From NCBI RefSeq assembly GCF_001956985.1, contig NZ_CP019082.1, forward strand, positions 5,766,001-5,830,000: a stretch of DNA of 64,000 nt, given 5' to 3'. Position 1 is the first letter of the stretch. Every line of letters begins with the position of its first letter. The notes beneath the pieces are model-generated. The model was not told where the DNA came from, did no database searches, and saw nothing but the letters and a program-made list of their open reading frames with translations. Below, piece by piece: positions 58,221 through 64,000 of the stretch. This DNA is from Paludisphaera borealis. Its GTDB lineage: Bacteria; Planctomycetota; Planctomycetia; Isosphaerales; Isosphaeraceae. A program made the position numbers and the translations under genes.

Positions 58221-59342
58221 GTGGCTGAATCGACACAAGCCCCTTATGGGAGGAAGACGCAGAAAGCGCCCGCCGTCAAGGAGATCCACATCCTCTGGAT
58301 GCCCGATGCGCTGGGCTGCGAGGGCGACACGGTCTCGACGACGGCCGCCACTCAGCCGAGCATCGAGGACATCCTGATGGGGGCCATTCCGGGCCTGCCG
58401 AAGGTCCATCTCCACAACCGGATTTTGGACTTCTCCCAGGGGGGCGAGGACTACCTGAAGGTCTGGTACGACGCGGCCGAGGGGCGGCTCGAAGCGCCCT
58501 TCGTGTTCATCGTCGAGGGCTCGATCCCCAACGAGAAGATCAAGTCCGAGGGCTACTGGGCCGCGATGGGCACGAACGCGAAGACCGGCCAGCCGATCAC
58601 CGTCACCGAGTGGATCGACCACCTGGCCCCGAGGGCCCTCGCGGTGGTCGCGGCCGGCACCTGCGCGGCATACGGGGGCATCCACGCCATGGCCGGCAAC
58701 CCGACCGGCTGCATGGGGCTGGCCGACTACCTCGGCTGGAGCTGGCGGTCCCATGCCGGCGTTCCGATCGTCAACGTCCCCGGGTGTCCGGTGCAACCCG
58801 ACAACATGACCGAGACGCTCCTTTACCTCCTCTACCAGGCGGCGGGCCTGGCGCCGATGATCCCGCTGGACAAGGAGCTGCGGCCGACCTGGCTGTTCGG
58901 CAAGACCGTCCACGAGGGCTGCGACCGCGGCAGTTATTACGAGCAGGCCGACTTCGCCCACGAGTACGGCTCGCCCAAATGCCTGGTGCGGCTCGGCTGC
59001 TGGGGGCCGGTCGTCAATTGCAACGTCACCAAACGCGGCTGGATGAACGGCCTCGGCGGCTGCCCGAACGTCGGCGGCATCTGCATCGGCTGCACGATGC
59101 CCGGCTTCCCCGACAAGTTCATGCCGTTCATGGACGAGCCGCCCGGCGGCGTCCTCTCGTCAAGCCTGATCGGGATGTACGGCAAGATCATCCGGAGGCT
59201 CCGCGCGATCACCAACACGACGCTCAACCACGAGCCGAAGTGGCGGCACGCCGGGCCCGATCTGACCACCGGCTACCACCCCACGTCCTACGACCACGAG
59301 CCCGTCGAGATCGAGAGAGGAGCGACCGCATGGCGACCGTGA
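58221..59342 (+). CDS. hhyS: Small subunit of actinobacterial-type (group 1h) [NiFe] hydrogenase
   Basis: 373-residue electron-transfer subunit with three Fe-S clusters. Proximal cluster candidates: C33, Asp36 (LGCEGD), C148 and C189. Distal cluster: H231, C234, C254, C260. A third cluster can draw on C267, C281, C288 and C291. The Asp replacing a usual Cys in the N-terminal motif is a known feature of this O2-tolerant class. No Tat signal is present, unlike group 1 periplasmic enzymes, in line with a cytoplasmic location. GTG start with a GGAAAGGAAGG-type ribosome site. Its 3' end overlaps the large subunit by 13 bases. Together they would oxidise trace H2. Confidence 0.93.
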   Translation: MAESTQAPYGRKTQKAPAVKEIHILWMPDALGCEGDTVSTTAATQPSIEDILMGAIPGLPKVHLHNRILDFSQGGEDYLKVWYDAAEGRLEAPFVFIVEGSIPNEKIKSEGYWAAMGTNAKTGQPITVTEWIDHLAPRALAVVAAGTCAAYGGIHAMAGNPTGCMGLADYLGWSWRSHAGVPIVNVPGCPVQPDNMTETLLYLLYQAAGLAPMIPLDKELRPTWLFGKTVHEGCDRGSYYEQADFAHEYGSPKCLVRLGCWGPVVNCNVTKRGWMNGLGGCPNVGGICIGCTMPGFPDKFMPFMDEPPGGVLSSSLIGMYGKIIRRLRAITNTTLNHEPKWRHAGPDLTTGYHPTSYDHEPVEIERGATAWRP

Positions 59343-61126
59343 CCCGACCCGTCCGCGAAACCCACGACGGCCCTCGCAACCTGGTCGAGATGTCGTGGGA
59401 CCCCATCACCCGGATCGTCGGCAGCCTGGGGATCTACACCAAGATCGACTTCGCCAACAAGCAGGTCGCCGAGTGCCACAGCACGTCGTCGATCTTCCGC
59501 GGCTACAGCGTCTTCATGAAGGGGAAGGACCCGCGCGACGCCCATTTCATCACCAGCCGGATCTGCGGGATCTGCGGCGACAACCACGCCACCTGCGCGT
59601 GTTACGCCCAGAACATGGCGTTCGGCGTCCGTCCGCCCGCCATCGCCGAATGGATCGTCAATCTTGGCGAGGCGGCGGAATATATGTTCGATCACTGCAT
59701 TTATCAGGACAACCTCGTCGGGGTGGACTACTGCGAGCAGATGGTCCGGGAGACCACGCCGAGCGTCTGGGCGAAGGCTCAGAAGAAGGCCGCGCCGCAC
59801 GCCGCCGACCACGGCTATCGGACGATCGCCGACATCATGACCGCGCTCAATCCGTTCACGGGGGACTTCTATCGCGAAGCCCTCCAGATGAGCCGGCTGA
59901 CGCGCGAGATGTTCTGCCTGATGGAGGGCCGGCACGTCCATCCGTCGACCCTGTATCCCGGCGGCGTCGGCACGGTGCCCACGCAACAGCTTTTCACCGA
60001 CTACCTCGTCCGGCTGATGAAGTACGTCGAGTTCATGAAGAAGGTCGTGCCGCTCCACAACGACCTGTTCGACTTCTTCTACGAGGCGCTTCCGGGCTAT
60101 GAGGAGGTGGGCCGTCGCCGCGTCTTGCTCGGCTGCTGGGGCTCGTGGAACGACCCGAAGGTCTGCGACTACGAGTACCGCCACATGAACGAGTGGGGCA
60201 AGGCGATGTACGTCACGCCCGGCGTCGTCGTCGACGGCAAGACGGTCACGAACAACCTCGTCGACATCAACCTCGGCATTCGCATCCTCCTCGGGTCGTC
60301 GTTTTACGACGACTGGGAGGGGGACGAGATGTTCGTCACGCACGACCCGCTCGGCAACCCCGTAGACCGCCGTCATCCGTGGAATCAGACGACCACGCCC
60401 CGGCCGCAGCGGCGCGATTTCGAGGGCAAGTACAGTTGGGTCATGTCGCCGCGCTGGAAGCACCCGGAGACCGGCGAGCACCTGGCGCTCGACACCGGCG
60501 GCGGCCCGATCGCCCGACTCTGGTCCACCGCGCTGGCGGGGACGGTCGACATCGGCTACATCAAGGCGACCGGGCACAGCGTCAAGATCTACCTGCCCAA
60601 GACCGCGATGAAGCCCGAGGTCGAGTTCGAGTGGAAGATCCCCAAGTGGAGCAACGCCATCGAGCGGAACCGGGCCCGCACGTACTTCCAGGCCTACGCC
60701 GCGGCCTGCGCCCTGCATTTCGCGGAGAAGGCGATGGAGGAGTTGCACGCCGGCCGGACCCGCACGTTCACCGACTTCACGGTGCCCGACGAGGCGATCG
60801 GCTGCGGCTTCCACGAGGCGGTGCGCGGCGTCCTGTCGCACCACGTCGTCATCCGGGACGGCAAAATCGCCAATTATCATCCCTATCCGCCGACCCCCTG
60901 GAACGCCAACCCGCGCGACGTCTACGGCACGCCCGGCCCGTACGAAGACGCGGTCCAGAACACGCCGATCTTCGAGGAGAACGGCCCCGACAAATTCAAG
61001 GGCGTCGACATCATGCGCGCCGTCCGCAGCTTCGACCCCTGCCTGCCGTGCGGCGTCCACATGTATACGGGCGAGGGCAAGCTGCTCGAAGTTCGGCACG
61101 TCCCGATGTTCGGCGCGCAGGGATGA
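59330..61126 (+). CDS. hhyL: Large subunit of actinobacterial-type (group 1h) [NiFe] hydrogenase
   Basis: 598-residue catalytic subunit carrying the NiFe centre. L1 motif RICGICGDNHATCA has C79 and C82; the L2 motif DPCLPCGVH has C571 and C574 with H577, followed by a 21-residue tail that would be cleaved by a specific endopeptidase after Ni insertion. No such protease gene is visible in the window. Other diagnostic sequences: ITRIVGSLGIYTKIDF at the N-terminus and GTVDIGYIKATGHSVKIYLPK. ATG 59330 has AGGAG upstream and overlaps hhyS. Length and motifs agree with the high-affinity group 1h/5 rather than membrane-bound group 1d. Confidence 0.93.
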   Translation: MATVTRPVRETHDGPRNLVEMSWDPITRIVGSLGIYTKIDFANKQVAECHSTSSIFRGYSVFMKGKDPRDAHFITSRICGICGDNHATCACYAQNMAFGVRPPAIAEWIVNLGEAAEYMFDHCIYQDNLVGVDYCEQMVRETTPSVWAKAQKKAAPHAADHGYRTIADIMTALNPFTGDFYREALQMSRLTREMFCLMEGRHVHPSTLYPGGVGTVPTQQLFTDYLVRLMKYVEFMKKVVPLHNDLFDFFYEALPGYEEVGRRRVLLGCWGSWNDPKVCDYEYRHMNEWGKAMYVTPGVVVDGKTVTNNLVDINLGIRILLGSSFYDDWEGDEMFVTHDPLGNPVDRRHPWNQTTTPRPQRRDFEGKYSWVMSPRWKHPETGEHLALDTGGGPIARLWSTALAGTVDIGYIKATGHSVKIYLPKTAMKPEVEFEWKIPKWSNAIERNRARTYFQAYAAACALHFAEKAMEELHAGRTRTFTDFTVPDEAIGCGFHEAVRGVLSHHVVIRDGKIANYHPYPPTPWNANPRDVYGTPGPYEDAVQNTPIFEENGPDKFKGVDIMRAVRSFDPCLPCGVHMYTGEGKLLEVRHVPMFGAQG

Positions 61127-61215: not shown

Positions 61216-61275
61216 GTAATACGCGTTTGTGGGCCAGACTCTAAGGCGGACGAACGCAAGAAACGGGAGACAGTG

Positions 61276-61830
61276 ATGACAGACCGTCTCGACGGCCCCG
61301 AGTTTCAGTCGCGGCTTCAGCGCCTCGACGCCTTGCTCCAGGACGTGGAACGCCTCGCCGACCCCGCGGCTCGGTCGCAGGTCGGCGAGGTGGTGCGGGC
61401 GCTCCTGGAATTGCACTGCGCGGGGCTCGAATCGATTCTCGAACACCTTGAAGCCGCGGGCGAGCCTGGCGCGGCAGTTCTCAGCGCCTGCGCACGCGAC
61501 GACATGGCGGGGGGCTTGTTGCTTCTGCACGGGCTCCATCCTTTCAGTCTCGAAGAGCGCGTGCTCCAGGCGCTCGAACAGGTCCGGCCGGTGCTTCGCT
61601 CGCATGGCGGAAACGTGGAAATGGTCGGGGTCGACGGCGGCGTCGTGAGGCTCCGCCTGACGGGAAGCTGCCACGGCTGCGCGTCGTCGGCCGTGACGAT
61701 GAAGCAGACGATCGAGGAAGCGGTCCTCGGCCGCGCGCCCGACGCCGTCGGCCTGGAAGTCGAGGGCGTGGTGGACGAACCGGAAACGACGCCGGACGGC
61801 CGGCGGCTGGTCGTCTTGACGGGAATCTAA
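61276..61830 (+). CDS. NifU-like C-terminal-domain Fe-S scaffold
   Basis: 184-residue protein with an N-terminal helical region (1-95) and a C-terminal NifU domain (about 96-160: RVLQALEQVRPVLRSHGGNVEMVGVDGG, in two parts RVLQALEQVRPVLRSH and GGNVEMVGVDGG, then GSCHGCASSAVTM). The cluster-binding pair is C132-x2-C135. It can deliver Fe-S clusters to the hydrogenase; similar NifU-like genes occur in group 1h operons. ATG 61276 is preferred (GGGAG six bases upstream) to the overlapping GTG 61273. It is followed by a 66-residue gene after 23 bases. Confidence 0.85.
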   Translation: MTDRLDGPEFQSRLQRLDALLQDVERLADPAARSQVGEVVRALLELHCAGLESILEHLEAAGEPGAAVLSACARDDMAGGLLLLHGLHPFSLEERVLQALEQVRPVLRSHGGNVEMVGVDGGVVRLRLTGSCHGCASSAVTMKQTIEEAVLGRAPDAVGLEVEGVVDEPETTPDGRRLVVLTGI

Positions 61831-61853: not shown

Positions 61854-62054
61854 ATGGGATGGCACGACTCCAGGGCGGCGCTGGCCGCCCACACTTCAGG
61901 GGTCCCCCGGGGCGAACAAATGGTCAGCAAGAGGGGGCGCGAGCCGGGCCGTGACGATCCGATGACCGGCCGCACGGCGCGCGACGCGACGAGCATTAAC
62001 GCCGCCGACCGCGAGCCGATCGACCCGCGCATGCCTCACCTCCCGCCGGCGTGA
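61854..62054 (+). CDS. Small protein of the hydrogenase operon, unknown function
   Basis: 66-residue hydrophilic, Arg/Pro/Asp-rich protein (MGWHDSRAALAAHTSGVPRG...). No membrane segment, no Cys. AAAGGAG lies 8 bases before the ATG, supporting real translation. It begins 23 bases after the NifU-like stop and overlaps the following frame slightly if that gene used its first GTG. I recognise no family. A disordered accessory, or a non-coding spacer, cannot be ruled out. Confidence 0.5.
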   Translation: MGWHDSRAALAAHTSGVPRGEQMVSKRGREPGRDDPMTGRTARDATSINAADREPIDPRMPHLPPA

Positions 62055-62083
62055 CACGATCGCGGACGATGAGGAGCCTTACC

Positions 62084-62716
62084 ATGAAAATCGAAACGCG
62101 CGTCGAGGGCCGCGAACAGTCGGTCTTCGCCTCGATCCGCCGGTACGCTCGACCTCGACAGGCCCGCGAGCGGTGTGGCATCTGCGACGCGGGGCTTGCC
62201 GCCGAACACGCGCACCTTATCGAGACGGCCGTCGGCCGGCTGACTTGCGCCTGCGAGCCCTGCGCGATCCTGTTCGGCAATCAGGACGCCGGGCGCTATC
62301 GCCGCGTGCCGAGGGACGCCTGGTTCCTGCCCGAGTTCCAGCTTTCGGACGTGGCGTGGGAGGGCTTCTCAATTCCGATCAATCTGGCCTTTTTCGTCCA
62401 CAGCACGCCGGCAGGCCGCGTGGTCGCGTATTATCCGAGCCCCGGCGGGGTCGTCCAGTCGCTCGTCTCGCTTGATGAATGGGCCGCTCTAGTCGCGGAG
62501 AACCCGGTCCTTGGCCGCTTCGAGCCGGACGTCGAGTGCCTGCTGGTGAACCGTGTCGGGGAGACGTGCGACTGCTATCGGGTGGGGATCGACGCGTGCT
62601 ACAAGCTCGTCGGCCTCGTCCGGATGAACTGGCGCGGGATGACGGGCGGGACGGCGGTCTGGAATGAGATCAATCGCTTCTTCAACGGTTTGAAGGAGCG
62701 GTCGAGCCATGCCTGA
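62084..62716 (+). CDS. Nine-cysteine accessory protein of group 1h hydrogenase operons (probably DUF5947)
   Basis: 210-residue soluble protein. Metal-site candidates: C31-x2-C34, C55-x-C57-x2-C60 with H42/H44 nearby, and a second set C152, C162, C164, C172 in the C-terminal half. No membrane segment. It matches my memory of family DUF5947, found with this hydrogenase type; the name was not checked. ATG 62084 is chosen because AGGAG lies 7 bases upstream. It overlaps the next gene by 8 bases. The cysteine set suggests an Fe-S or zinc protein, possibly an electron carrier or cofactor carrier, but no function is known. Confidence 0.8.
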   Translation: MKIETRVEGREQSVFASIRRYARPRQARERCGICDAGLAAEHAHLIETAVGRLTCACEPCAILFGNQDAGRYRRVPRDAWFLPEFQLSDVAWEGFSIPINLAFFVHSTPAGRVVAYYPSPGGVVQSLVSLDEWAALVAENPVLGRFEPDVECLLVNRVGETCDCYRVGIDACYKLVGLVRMNWRGMTGGTAVWNEINRFFNGLKERSSHA

Positions 62717-63371
62717 CCTGAACTTCCAGGTGGAGGGAGTCGAGCCCCAAAAGTTTGCGGCCGAGCCGTTGCTGCTGTTCAAGCTCCGCGTCTCCGAAGC
62801 CCTGAACAACGGCCTGGCGCCGACGCCGGTCCACACCGTCGCGCTTCGCTGCCAGGTGCGAATCGAGCCCGGCCGGCGAACCTATCAGGCAGCGGAGCGC
62901 GAGCGACTGCTCGGCCTGTTCGGCGCTCCCGAGCGCTGGGGGCAGACGCTGAAGCCGATGCTTTGGAGCCATGTCTGCGTCGTCGTCCCGTCGTTCGAGG
63001 GCGAGGTCGTCGTCGACTTGCCGATCCCGTGCAGTTTCGACTTCAGCCTGGCGGCGACGCGGTATTTCAGCGCGCTCGACGGCGGCGACCTGCCGCTCGG
63101 CTTCCTGTTCAGCGGCACGATTTTCTTCGCGACGGAAGAGGGCGATTTGCAGGTGCGACCGATCGCGTGGGACAAGGAAGCCTCGTTCCGGCTCCCGGCC
63201 TCGACCTGGCGCGAGCTGATGGACGTGTTCCATCCCAACACCGCCTGGCTGTCGATCCGCCGCGACGTCTTCGACCGACTCGACCGCTACAAGACGGAGC
63301 AAGGCATGCCGACATGGGAACGGGCTCTTGAGCGGCTGCTCGCCACGGCCGAGGAGGGAGCGACGCCATGA
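62709..63371 (+). CDS. Hydrogenase-operon accessory protein (probably DUF6084)
   Basis: 220-residue soluble protein, rich in beta strands: MPDLNFQVEGVEPQKFAAEP at the start, RTYQAAERERLLGLFGAPERW, VVVDLPIPCSFDFSLAATRYF, and LPLGFLFSGTIFFATEEGDL. Aromatic-rich, no Cys cluster, no membrane segment or signal peptide. It fits family DUF6084, which I recall as a companion of group 1h hydrogenases; unchecked. It overlaps both neighbours (8 and 4 bases), so is strictly coupled to them. Function unknown. Confidence 0.8.
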   Translation: MPDLNFQVEGVEPQKFAAEPLLLFKLRVSEALNNGLAPTPVHTVALRCQVRIEPGRRTYQAAERERLLGLFGAPERWGQTLKPMLWSHVCVVVPSFEGEVVVDLPIPCSFDFSLAATRYFSALDGGDLPLGFLFSGTIFFATEEGDLQVRPIAWDKEASFRLPASTWRELMDVFHPNTAWLSIRRDVFDRLDRYKTEQGMPTWERALERLLATAEEGATP

Positions 63372-64000
63372 ACCGCGCGCTGGTCGACCGCATCGCCGAC
63401 GCCGTTCTGTATGAAGGGTACATCCTTTACCCCTACCGCCCGTCGATCAAGAACCATCAACGCTGGACCTTCGGCGGCCTCTTTCCCGAGAGCTACACGC
63501 GGTCCCAGCGCAACGGCGACGCGTCGAGCAATCGGACCGAATGTCTGGTCCACGGGACGCGCGCGTCGGCGATCGACGTCCGGGTCCGCTTCCTCCATCT
63601 GACGGCCCGTCAGGTGGGCTTCCTCGATCCGCCAAGCGCTGAATGGCCCGAAGACGGCCCGGAGCCGCCGTTCCAACCGGTCGAGTCGCTCCGCGCGGGC
63701 GGGGCGATTCACCAGACGTGGCAGGAGGCCGAGGAGCGCGAGGCGAGCCTGGGCGAAACGACGATCGACGACCTCATCACTCGACCGCGCGAGACGACCT
63801 TCGCGTTCGTGGGAGGACGACGGTGGGAGCCGATCCGCGTGCCGGGCCGAGGCGTCGTCGGCGTCATCGTCCGCGATCAACAGCCCGTCGCGGGGGGCGT
63901 CGAGGCGTCGGCCGTCGAGGTCGCCGAGGGATTGTTCCGCCTCTCGATTCGCGTCGCCTGTCGGTCGTCGATGGAGGATGCGGCGGTCGCGGATCGCGAC
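63368..64000 (+). CDS. Hydrogenase-operon accessory protein of unknown function, cut by window end
   Basis: The first 211 codons of a protein starting MNRALVDRIADAVLYEGYIL and continuing with PYRPSIKNHQRWTFGGLFPE and SYTRSQRNGDASSNRTECLVHG. The frame remains open to the last base, so the gene is incomplete. The ATG overlaps the preceding stop (ATGA), proving operon membership. The LYPYRPSIKN...WTFGGL motif recurs in hydrogenase-linked hypothetical proteins as I remember them. No Cys cluster in this part except one in TECLVHG and one near the end. No function assigned. Confidence 0.75.
   Translation, partial: MNRALVDRIADAVLYEGYILYPYRPSIKNHQRWTFGGLFPESYTRSQRNGDASSNRTECLVHGTRASAIDVRVRFLHLTARQVGFLDPPSAEWPEDGPEPPFQPVESLRAGGAIHQTWQEAEEREASLGETTIDDLITRPRETTFAFVGGRRWEPIRVPGRGVVGVIVRDQQPVAGGVEASAVEVAEGLFRLSIRVACRSSMEDAAVADRD

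Follow-up and report, generated by a model that had tools for sequence, protein, structure and literature searches.

DUF5947, a class-specific accessory protein of group 1h [NiFe]-hydrogenases with seven invariant cysteine and histidine residues

The DNA analyzed here is a 64,000-nucleotide stretch of the Paludisphaera borealis chromosome (hereafter the window), and toward its 3' end it carries a hydrogenase operon, all genes of which are encoded on the forward strand. This operon involves hhyS (58221–59342), which codes for the small subunit (PF14720 and PF01058), and hhyL (59330–61126), the open reading frame of the 598-residue [NiFe]-hydrogenase large subunit, the relatives of which are 77–87% identical. 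hhyE (61273–61830) encodes a NifU-like protein of 185 residues (PF01106, E 2.9e-21), which contains a CxxC motif (C133/C136) and is without the Rieske-like C-terminal domain. An unannotated ORF of 66 amino acids (61854–62054) follows, and then the DUF5947 gene (62084–62716), which thus sits 3' of hhyS and hhyL and shares an 8-nt overlap with the subsequent DUF6084 gene (62709–63371; PF19562, E 5.7e-87). The last ORF (63368–64000) extends beyond the window end and encodes an unnamed operon protein of 356 amino acids, relatives of which are present at 31 of the 32 loci compared below. Past the window, the 356-aa protein is followed by a YceI-like protein, which was labeled by eye, and then by a maturation protease, which was labeled via the matches of annotated neighbors.

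The preliminary description had placed at 62084–62716 (+) an ORF of 210 amino acids with Cys at positions 31, 34, 55, 57, 60, 152, 162, 164, and 172, and our analysis reproduced these data. A Shine-Dalgarno-like GAGGAG is located at 62071–62076, 7 nt 5' of the ATG, and for this reason the ATG at 62084 is favored over a GTG at 62051 as start codon. The protein was assigned to DUF5947 (PF19372, E 1.3e-66) with 224 bits (gathering cut-off 25), and the match covered positions 1–176 of the 177 profile positions. This was its sole Pfam match, and it was also the single match to the family in its own genome. Neither PHROGs nor a PDB sequence search with the single protein yielded a match. Our literature search on DUF5947 retrieved no paper, and for DUF6084, PF19562, and PF19372 the only match was a paper on aurodox biosynthesis.

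The 32 loci used for comparison comprised the window, three Acidobacteria contigs, eight plasmid records (Cupriavidus, Mycobacterium, Methylocystis, Embleya, Streptomyces twice, Kitasatospora, Streptantibioticus), eight genomes of the window family, and 12 genomes from the G338 draw described below. Loci sharing genomes or records with others (L020–L022, L035, L036) were left out, and so were the L006 row (55-residue match at a contig end) and the duplicate or near-duplicate rows H1, H3, H8, and H10. One of the loci (L005) ends early and the hhyE of another (L060) is a fragment. At all 32 loci, DUF5947 is located 3' of an hhyE-type gene on the shared strand, and between the two genes there is at most the small ORF, plus an additional 187-aa ORF in L005. 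As far as the sequence of each locus extends, the order is (hhyS)-hhyL-hhyE-DUF5947-DUF6084-hyp-protease. Among the 32 loci, DUF6084 was not found in L005 (which ends early), L039, and L059.

The 253-nt gap 5' of the DUF5947 gene was considered as a decayed Rieske-like domain, but this candidate was rejected since tblastn gave no match; the gap holds the 66-aa ORF, which carries a conserved C-terminal RTARDATSxNxxxxxPIDPxMPHLPPA motif. Equivalents were found at each of the 12 loci (out of 32) that have an hhyE-DUF5947 gap of at least 178 nt, and the one in L059 is divergent. No Pfam or NCBIfam model matched this ORF, and its product is probably disordered. A search with a ten-row profile gave matches in 4 of the 45 and in 5 of the 247 genomes of two draws, one per genome and always at a group 1h locus. 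Build rows are among these matches, and for many genomes the initial scan scored a subset of the candidates. Because the build rows are included, the informative part of this search is the absence elsewhere. In L005, the small ORF is followed by the 187-aa ORF, which is membrane protein-like and, as judged by eye alone, similar to DoxX-type proteins.

Exclusivity was quantified in three disjoint draws of 585 genomes altogether, in which G000 was counted once. In the draw from the window phylum, DUF5947 was present in 1 of 294 genomes, and this genome (the window's own) also contained the sole group-1h-like HhyL; 22 further genomes carried distant NiFe large subunits alone (identity of 47% or less) and none of them contained DUF5947. 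For the window family, we observed DUF5947 in 9 and HhyL in 10 of 45 genomes (best match 80–100% identity; Fisher p 1e-8). The HhyL-containing genome without DUF5947 is G309, and we attribute this exception to the contig end, because the hhyE match stops 68 nt short of it. In the draw from the phylum of G338, 13 of 247 genomes contained DUF5947 and the identical 13 carried HhyL at 77–84% identity (Fisher p 7e-22), while the 43 genomes with distant NiFe matches alone were all without DUF5947. Over all draws, DUF5947 was found in 22 of the 23 genomes with a group-1h-like HhyL and in 0 of the 562 genomes without it, 65 of which contain distant NiFe hydrogenases alone. The earlier suggestion of an accessory tied to the group 1h hydrogenase is, thus, borne out by gene order and co-occurrence, and DUF5947 is a genuine accessory that is specific to the group 1h class of [NiFe]-hydrogenases.

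To explore the conservation of the Cys and His residues, we aligned 32 DUF5947 orthologue rows, the pairwise identity of which ranged from 32 to 98% (median 46%). Here, we found that C31, C34, H42, H44, C55, C57, and C60 are each present in 32 of 32 rows and that they constitute the sole invariant columns within residues 31–60. The cluster reads C31-x2-C34-x7-H42-x-H44-(L/V)-x9-C55-x-C57-x2-C60 (62174–62263), and its spacing is fixed apart from one additional residue ahead of the HxH in two rows. Seven of the 13 Cys and His residues of the window protein fall into the 17 invariant columns among its 210 positions (hypergeometric p 8e-6). The remaining Cys are located in the C-terminal alpha/beta domain (residues 82–210; 62327–62713), which was defined by alignment and model. 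C172 is present in 30 of the 32 rows, and the counts for C152, C162, and C164 are 1, 2, and 7, so that these three Cys are additional in the window copy when compared with most relatives. Two Cys groups and strict conservation of all nine Cys had been expected from the window protein. The first group stood (its five Cys are invariant and H42/H44 join them), but the second did not, and with five of nine Cys invariant the alignment rules out the nine-Cys, two-cluster reading. Because invariance is confined to the first Cys group plus H42/H44, the protein has a single metal-site-like cluster rather than two.

The Cys motifs of the neighboring HhyE behave differently. Its NifU CxxC is intact at 20 of the 32 loci and lost or displaced at the other 12, where several actinobacterial rows keep a neighboring CxC, and the Rieske-like C-terminal CxxC..CxxC is present at 5 of 32 loci, with a variant in a sixth one (L049). 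Since the loci were picked for the presence of DUF5947, this contrast with the constant DUF5947 motif is valid for these operons alone. HhyE and HucE, putative Fe-S proteins of the M. smegmatis hydrogenases, resemble DUF5947 in being operon accessories with Cys motifs and a proposed role in electron transfer or maturation, but they belong to a different, NifU-like family, in which the Rieske-like domain may be present or absent and the motifs are not conserved at many loci. Deletion of hhyE in M. smegmatis showed that HhyE is needed for H2 oxidation (accessible part of PMC6883350). Two length forms, a long one with and a short one without the Rieske-like CxxC..CxxC domain, were observed for HhyE (L017, L005, L049–L052). 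The possibility that the Cys region of DUF5947 is a detached C-terminal domain of HhyE was ruled out, since both are present in Mycobacterium and in several Acidobacteria.

For structural comparison, a full-length AlphaFold model was built with 24 alignment rows (the eight plasmid-derived rows were left out). It reached a mean pLDDT of 87.5 and a pTM of 0.81, and residues 31–60 scored at pLDDT about 94–95. The AlphaFold models contain no metals. In the Cys region, the model predicts two strands forming a hairpin (43–47, 52–56) after a knuckle and a helix (58–64), and identical elements were predicted for the isolated 56-residue domain (pLDDT 83.1). A treble clef consists of a knuckle, a beta-hairpin, and a helix with CxxC pairs, the second Cys pair being located at the helix start. 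Since C57/C60 open the helix after the hairpin in our model, the order of the elements fits this fold. When we searched with the full-length and the isolated-domain models, Foldseek gave nothing at E ≤0.001. A second structural aligner yielded for the isolated domain Z-scores of 3.1–4.0 over 36–52 residues among the matches listed, none of which is significant, and by title these were mostly ribosomal (60S), FYVE, RING, ZZ, PHD-like, and GATA zinc domains. We take the ribosomal 60S chains to be L24e-like. For the full-length model, the Z-scores did not exceed 2.9 and the hits for the C-terminal domain were weak and mixed. No ferredoxin or rubredoxin chain was among the structural matches listed, which by itself does not amount to proof against such a fold.

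On the sequence level, the sole recurrent match of the DUF5947 profile was Ta0938 (2fqh), which at E 0.064–0.072 stays below significance, and 3 of 29 DUF5947 members weakly matched Pfam Ta0938. Other profile matches (Rad50, a viral premembrane protein) were at chance level, and no Fe-S family (ferredoxin, rubredoxin, Rieske) was among the weak family matches listed with E-values up to 10. A literature search combining Ta0938 and zinc retrieved no paper. Jointly, the weak matches of fold and sequence lean to zinc with none of them being significant alone, and this leaning should be taken with caution because zinc-finger families are numerous and chance matches are easily obtained. If the models are right, DUF5947 would share with treble-clef zinc domains (FYVE, L24e, Ta0938) the knuckle, the beta-hairpin, and the helix as well as the CxxC pairs. 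However, the similarity to these domains is weak (Z up to 4.0; E 0.064) and DUF5947 adds the invariant HxH and C55.

The idea of DUF5947 as electron acceptor is not new. Hypothetical proteins encoded 3' of HhyE, notably MSMEG_2717, a homologue of PHG067, have been suggested by Islam et al. 2019 as possible electron acceptors, and PHG067 itself had been put forward as R. eutropha acceptor by Schafer et al. 2013, as cited in the accessible part of PMC6883350. In the accessible part of PMC4377017, hofK and hofG correspond to PHG064 and PHG065, and PHG066 and PHG067 are highly expressed and range within the top 50 genes. Since the DUF5947 gene of pHG1 is the second gene after hofG, we assign it to PHG067, and by gene order C. 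necator H16_RS31855 is the probable PHG067. The acceptor proposal is thus in print for a probable orthologue. PHG067 and, as reported, MSMEG_2717 belong to DUF5947 like the window protein and, as it does, follow the NifU-like gene of a group 1h operon, and the seven-residue cluster is identical in our Cupriavidus and Mycobacterium rows (L016, L017). The group 1h enzyme of Methylacidiphilum fumariolicum SolV is functional, and this organism reportedly does not contain homologues of the hypothetical Pyrinomonas operon proteins, which were proposed there for electron flow (accessible part of PMC7174314). Because of this report, neither a zinc-accessory nor a redox role would be universal.

With moderate confidence, we suggest that DUF5947 is a dedicated cytosolic accessory of the group 1h enzyme, which carries a structural zinc finger and has a docking or assembly role. 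This suggestion builds on the observed family assignment, operon membership, co-occurrence, and seven-residue invariance and on the predicted fold elements, from which we infer the metal, its ligands, the location, and the role. C31, C34, C57, and C60 would most likely hold a structural Zn2+ in a treble-clef-like knuckle (residues about 31–60), with H42, H44, and C55 on the neighboring hairpin face and the alpha/beta domain after the knuckle. Jointly with HhyE and DUF6084, the protein would most likely serve HhySL in docking or assembly and may help to assemble or stabilize the hydrogenase or couple HhySL to its acceptor, rather than itself carrying electrons. The additional invariant residues H42, H44, and C55 are more than one structural zinc requires, which counts against this explanation. 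Because these residues would lie close together next to the zinc site and on one face, we also considered a paired site, with zinc at C31/C34/C57/C60 and, on the shared hairpin face, H42/H44/C55 as ligands of another metal that is redox-active or can be transferred. The simplest pairing of strands 43–47 and 52–56 in the model would place H44 opposite C55 and H42 opposite C57. In most group 1h hydrogenases, such a site might act as the shared point where electrons leave or as the shared source of metal, and it would be kept where HhyE lost its Fe-S motifs, but we consider this speculative and quite improbable.

If, in contrast to the structural zinc finger we favor, the metal in the cluster is redox-active, either as rubredoxin-like Fe(Cys)4 or as Fe-S, electrons might flow from the distal cluster of HhyS via DUF5947 to menaquinone. 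Such electron carriage is possible but, in our opinion, rather unlikely. The printed proposal for PHG067 and the five invariant Cys are in line with it, and a search of the Hhy operon of M. smegmatis for a counterpart of cytochrome b had been negative (accessible part of PMC6883350). Should a universal redox partner be required by the enzyme, DUF5947 would be a better candidate than HhyE because its motif is constant and the HhyE CxxC erratic, and this difference keeps the redox idea alive. On the other hand, the treble-clef-like predicted topology, the zinc-type weak matches, and the lack of Fe-S families among those listed argue against a carrier, and Hyd-1h of SolV was purified as two bands, HhyL and HhyS (accessible part of PMC7174314), although SolV may lack DUF5947.

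Alternatively, DUF5947 might cooperate with NifU-like HhyE as a transient maturation factor, which supplies HhyS with its Fe-S clusters or puts them in place in the presence of air and then leaves, in analogy to the rubredoxin-related factor of an R. eutropha membrane-bound hydrogenase. This possibility, which we consider unlikely, is consistent with the position of DUF5947 after hhyE at all 32 loci (with the small ORF in between in some of them). Moreover, no activity is left when HhyE is lost, not even with NBT, and a maturation role was therefore kept open with reference to Fritsch et al. 2014, the rubredoxin-related factor being cited as well (accessible part of PMC6883350). That factor and DUF5947 are both small Cys-rich accessories, each associated with one hydrogenase class, but DUF5947 has no rubredoxin sequence or fold match among the matches listed. 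The R. eutropha factor is presumably HoxR. Beyond the invariant cluster, DUF5947 does not contain a scaffold-type motif, and a maturation function would overlap with the assembly role we favor. Finally, ribosomal and GATA types among the structural matches might suggest a regulatory or nucleic acid-binding zinc finger with no link to catalysis. However, the tight operon place, the overlapping genes, and the restriction to group 1h make this highly improbable.

Group 1h enzymes contribute to the biological atmospheric H2 sink, and their electron route to the quinone pool was left open (accessible part of PMC6883350). In the operons examined here, the constant Cys-rich accessory is DUF5947 and not the cluster motifs of HhyE, which narrows the question of the quinone route, and the seven invariant residues stand out as mutation targets. 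The value of these data is a sharpened, testable question about DUF5947, rather than a new system, and a small conserved ORF without Pfam or NCBIfam model has been brought to light.

Two minor observations concern the surroundings of hydrogenase genes. In G307:C208 (L066, 1–4028), which comes from a member of the window family, a second HhyL-like gene (78% identical) is followed by an ORF that looks PAS/histidine kinase-like by eye. No hhyE or DUF5947 was found within 8 kb of this gene, which is possibly a sensory or displaced copy in an assembly that is 9% contaminated. On the Mycobacterium intracellulare plasmid (L017, 13133–18537), NADH-quinone oxidoreductase genes are located directly 3' of the group 1h operon.
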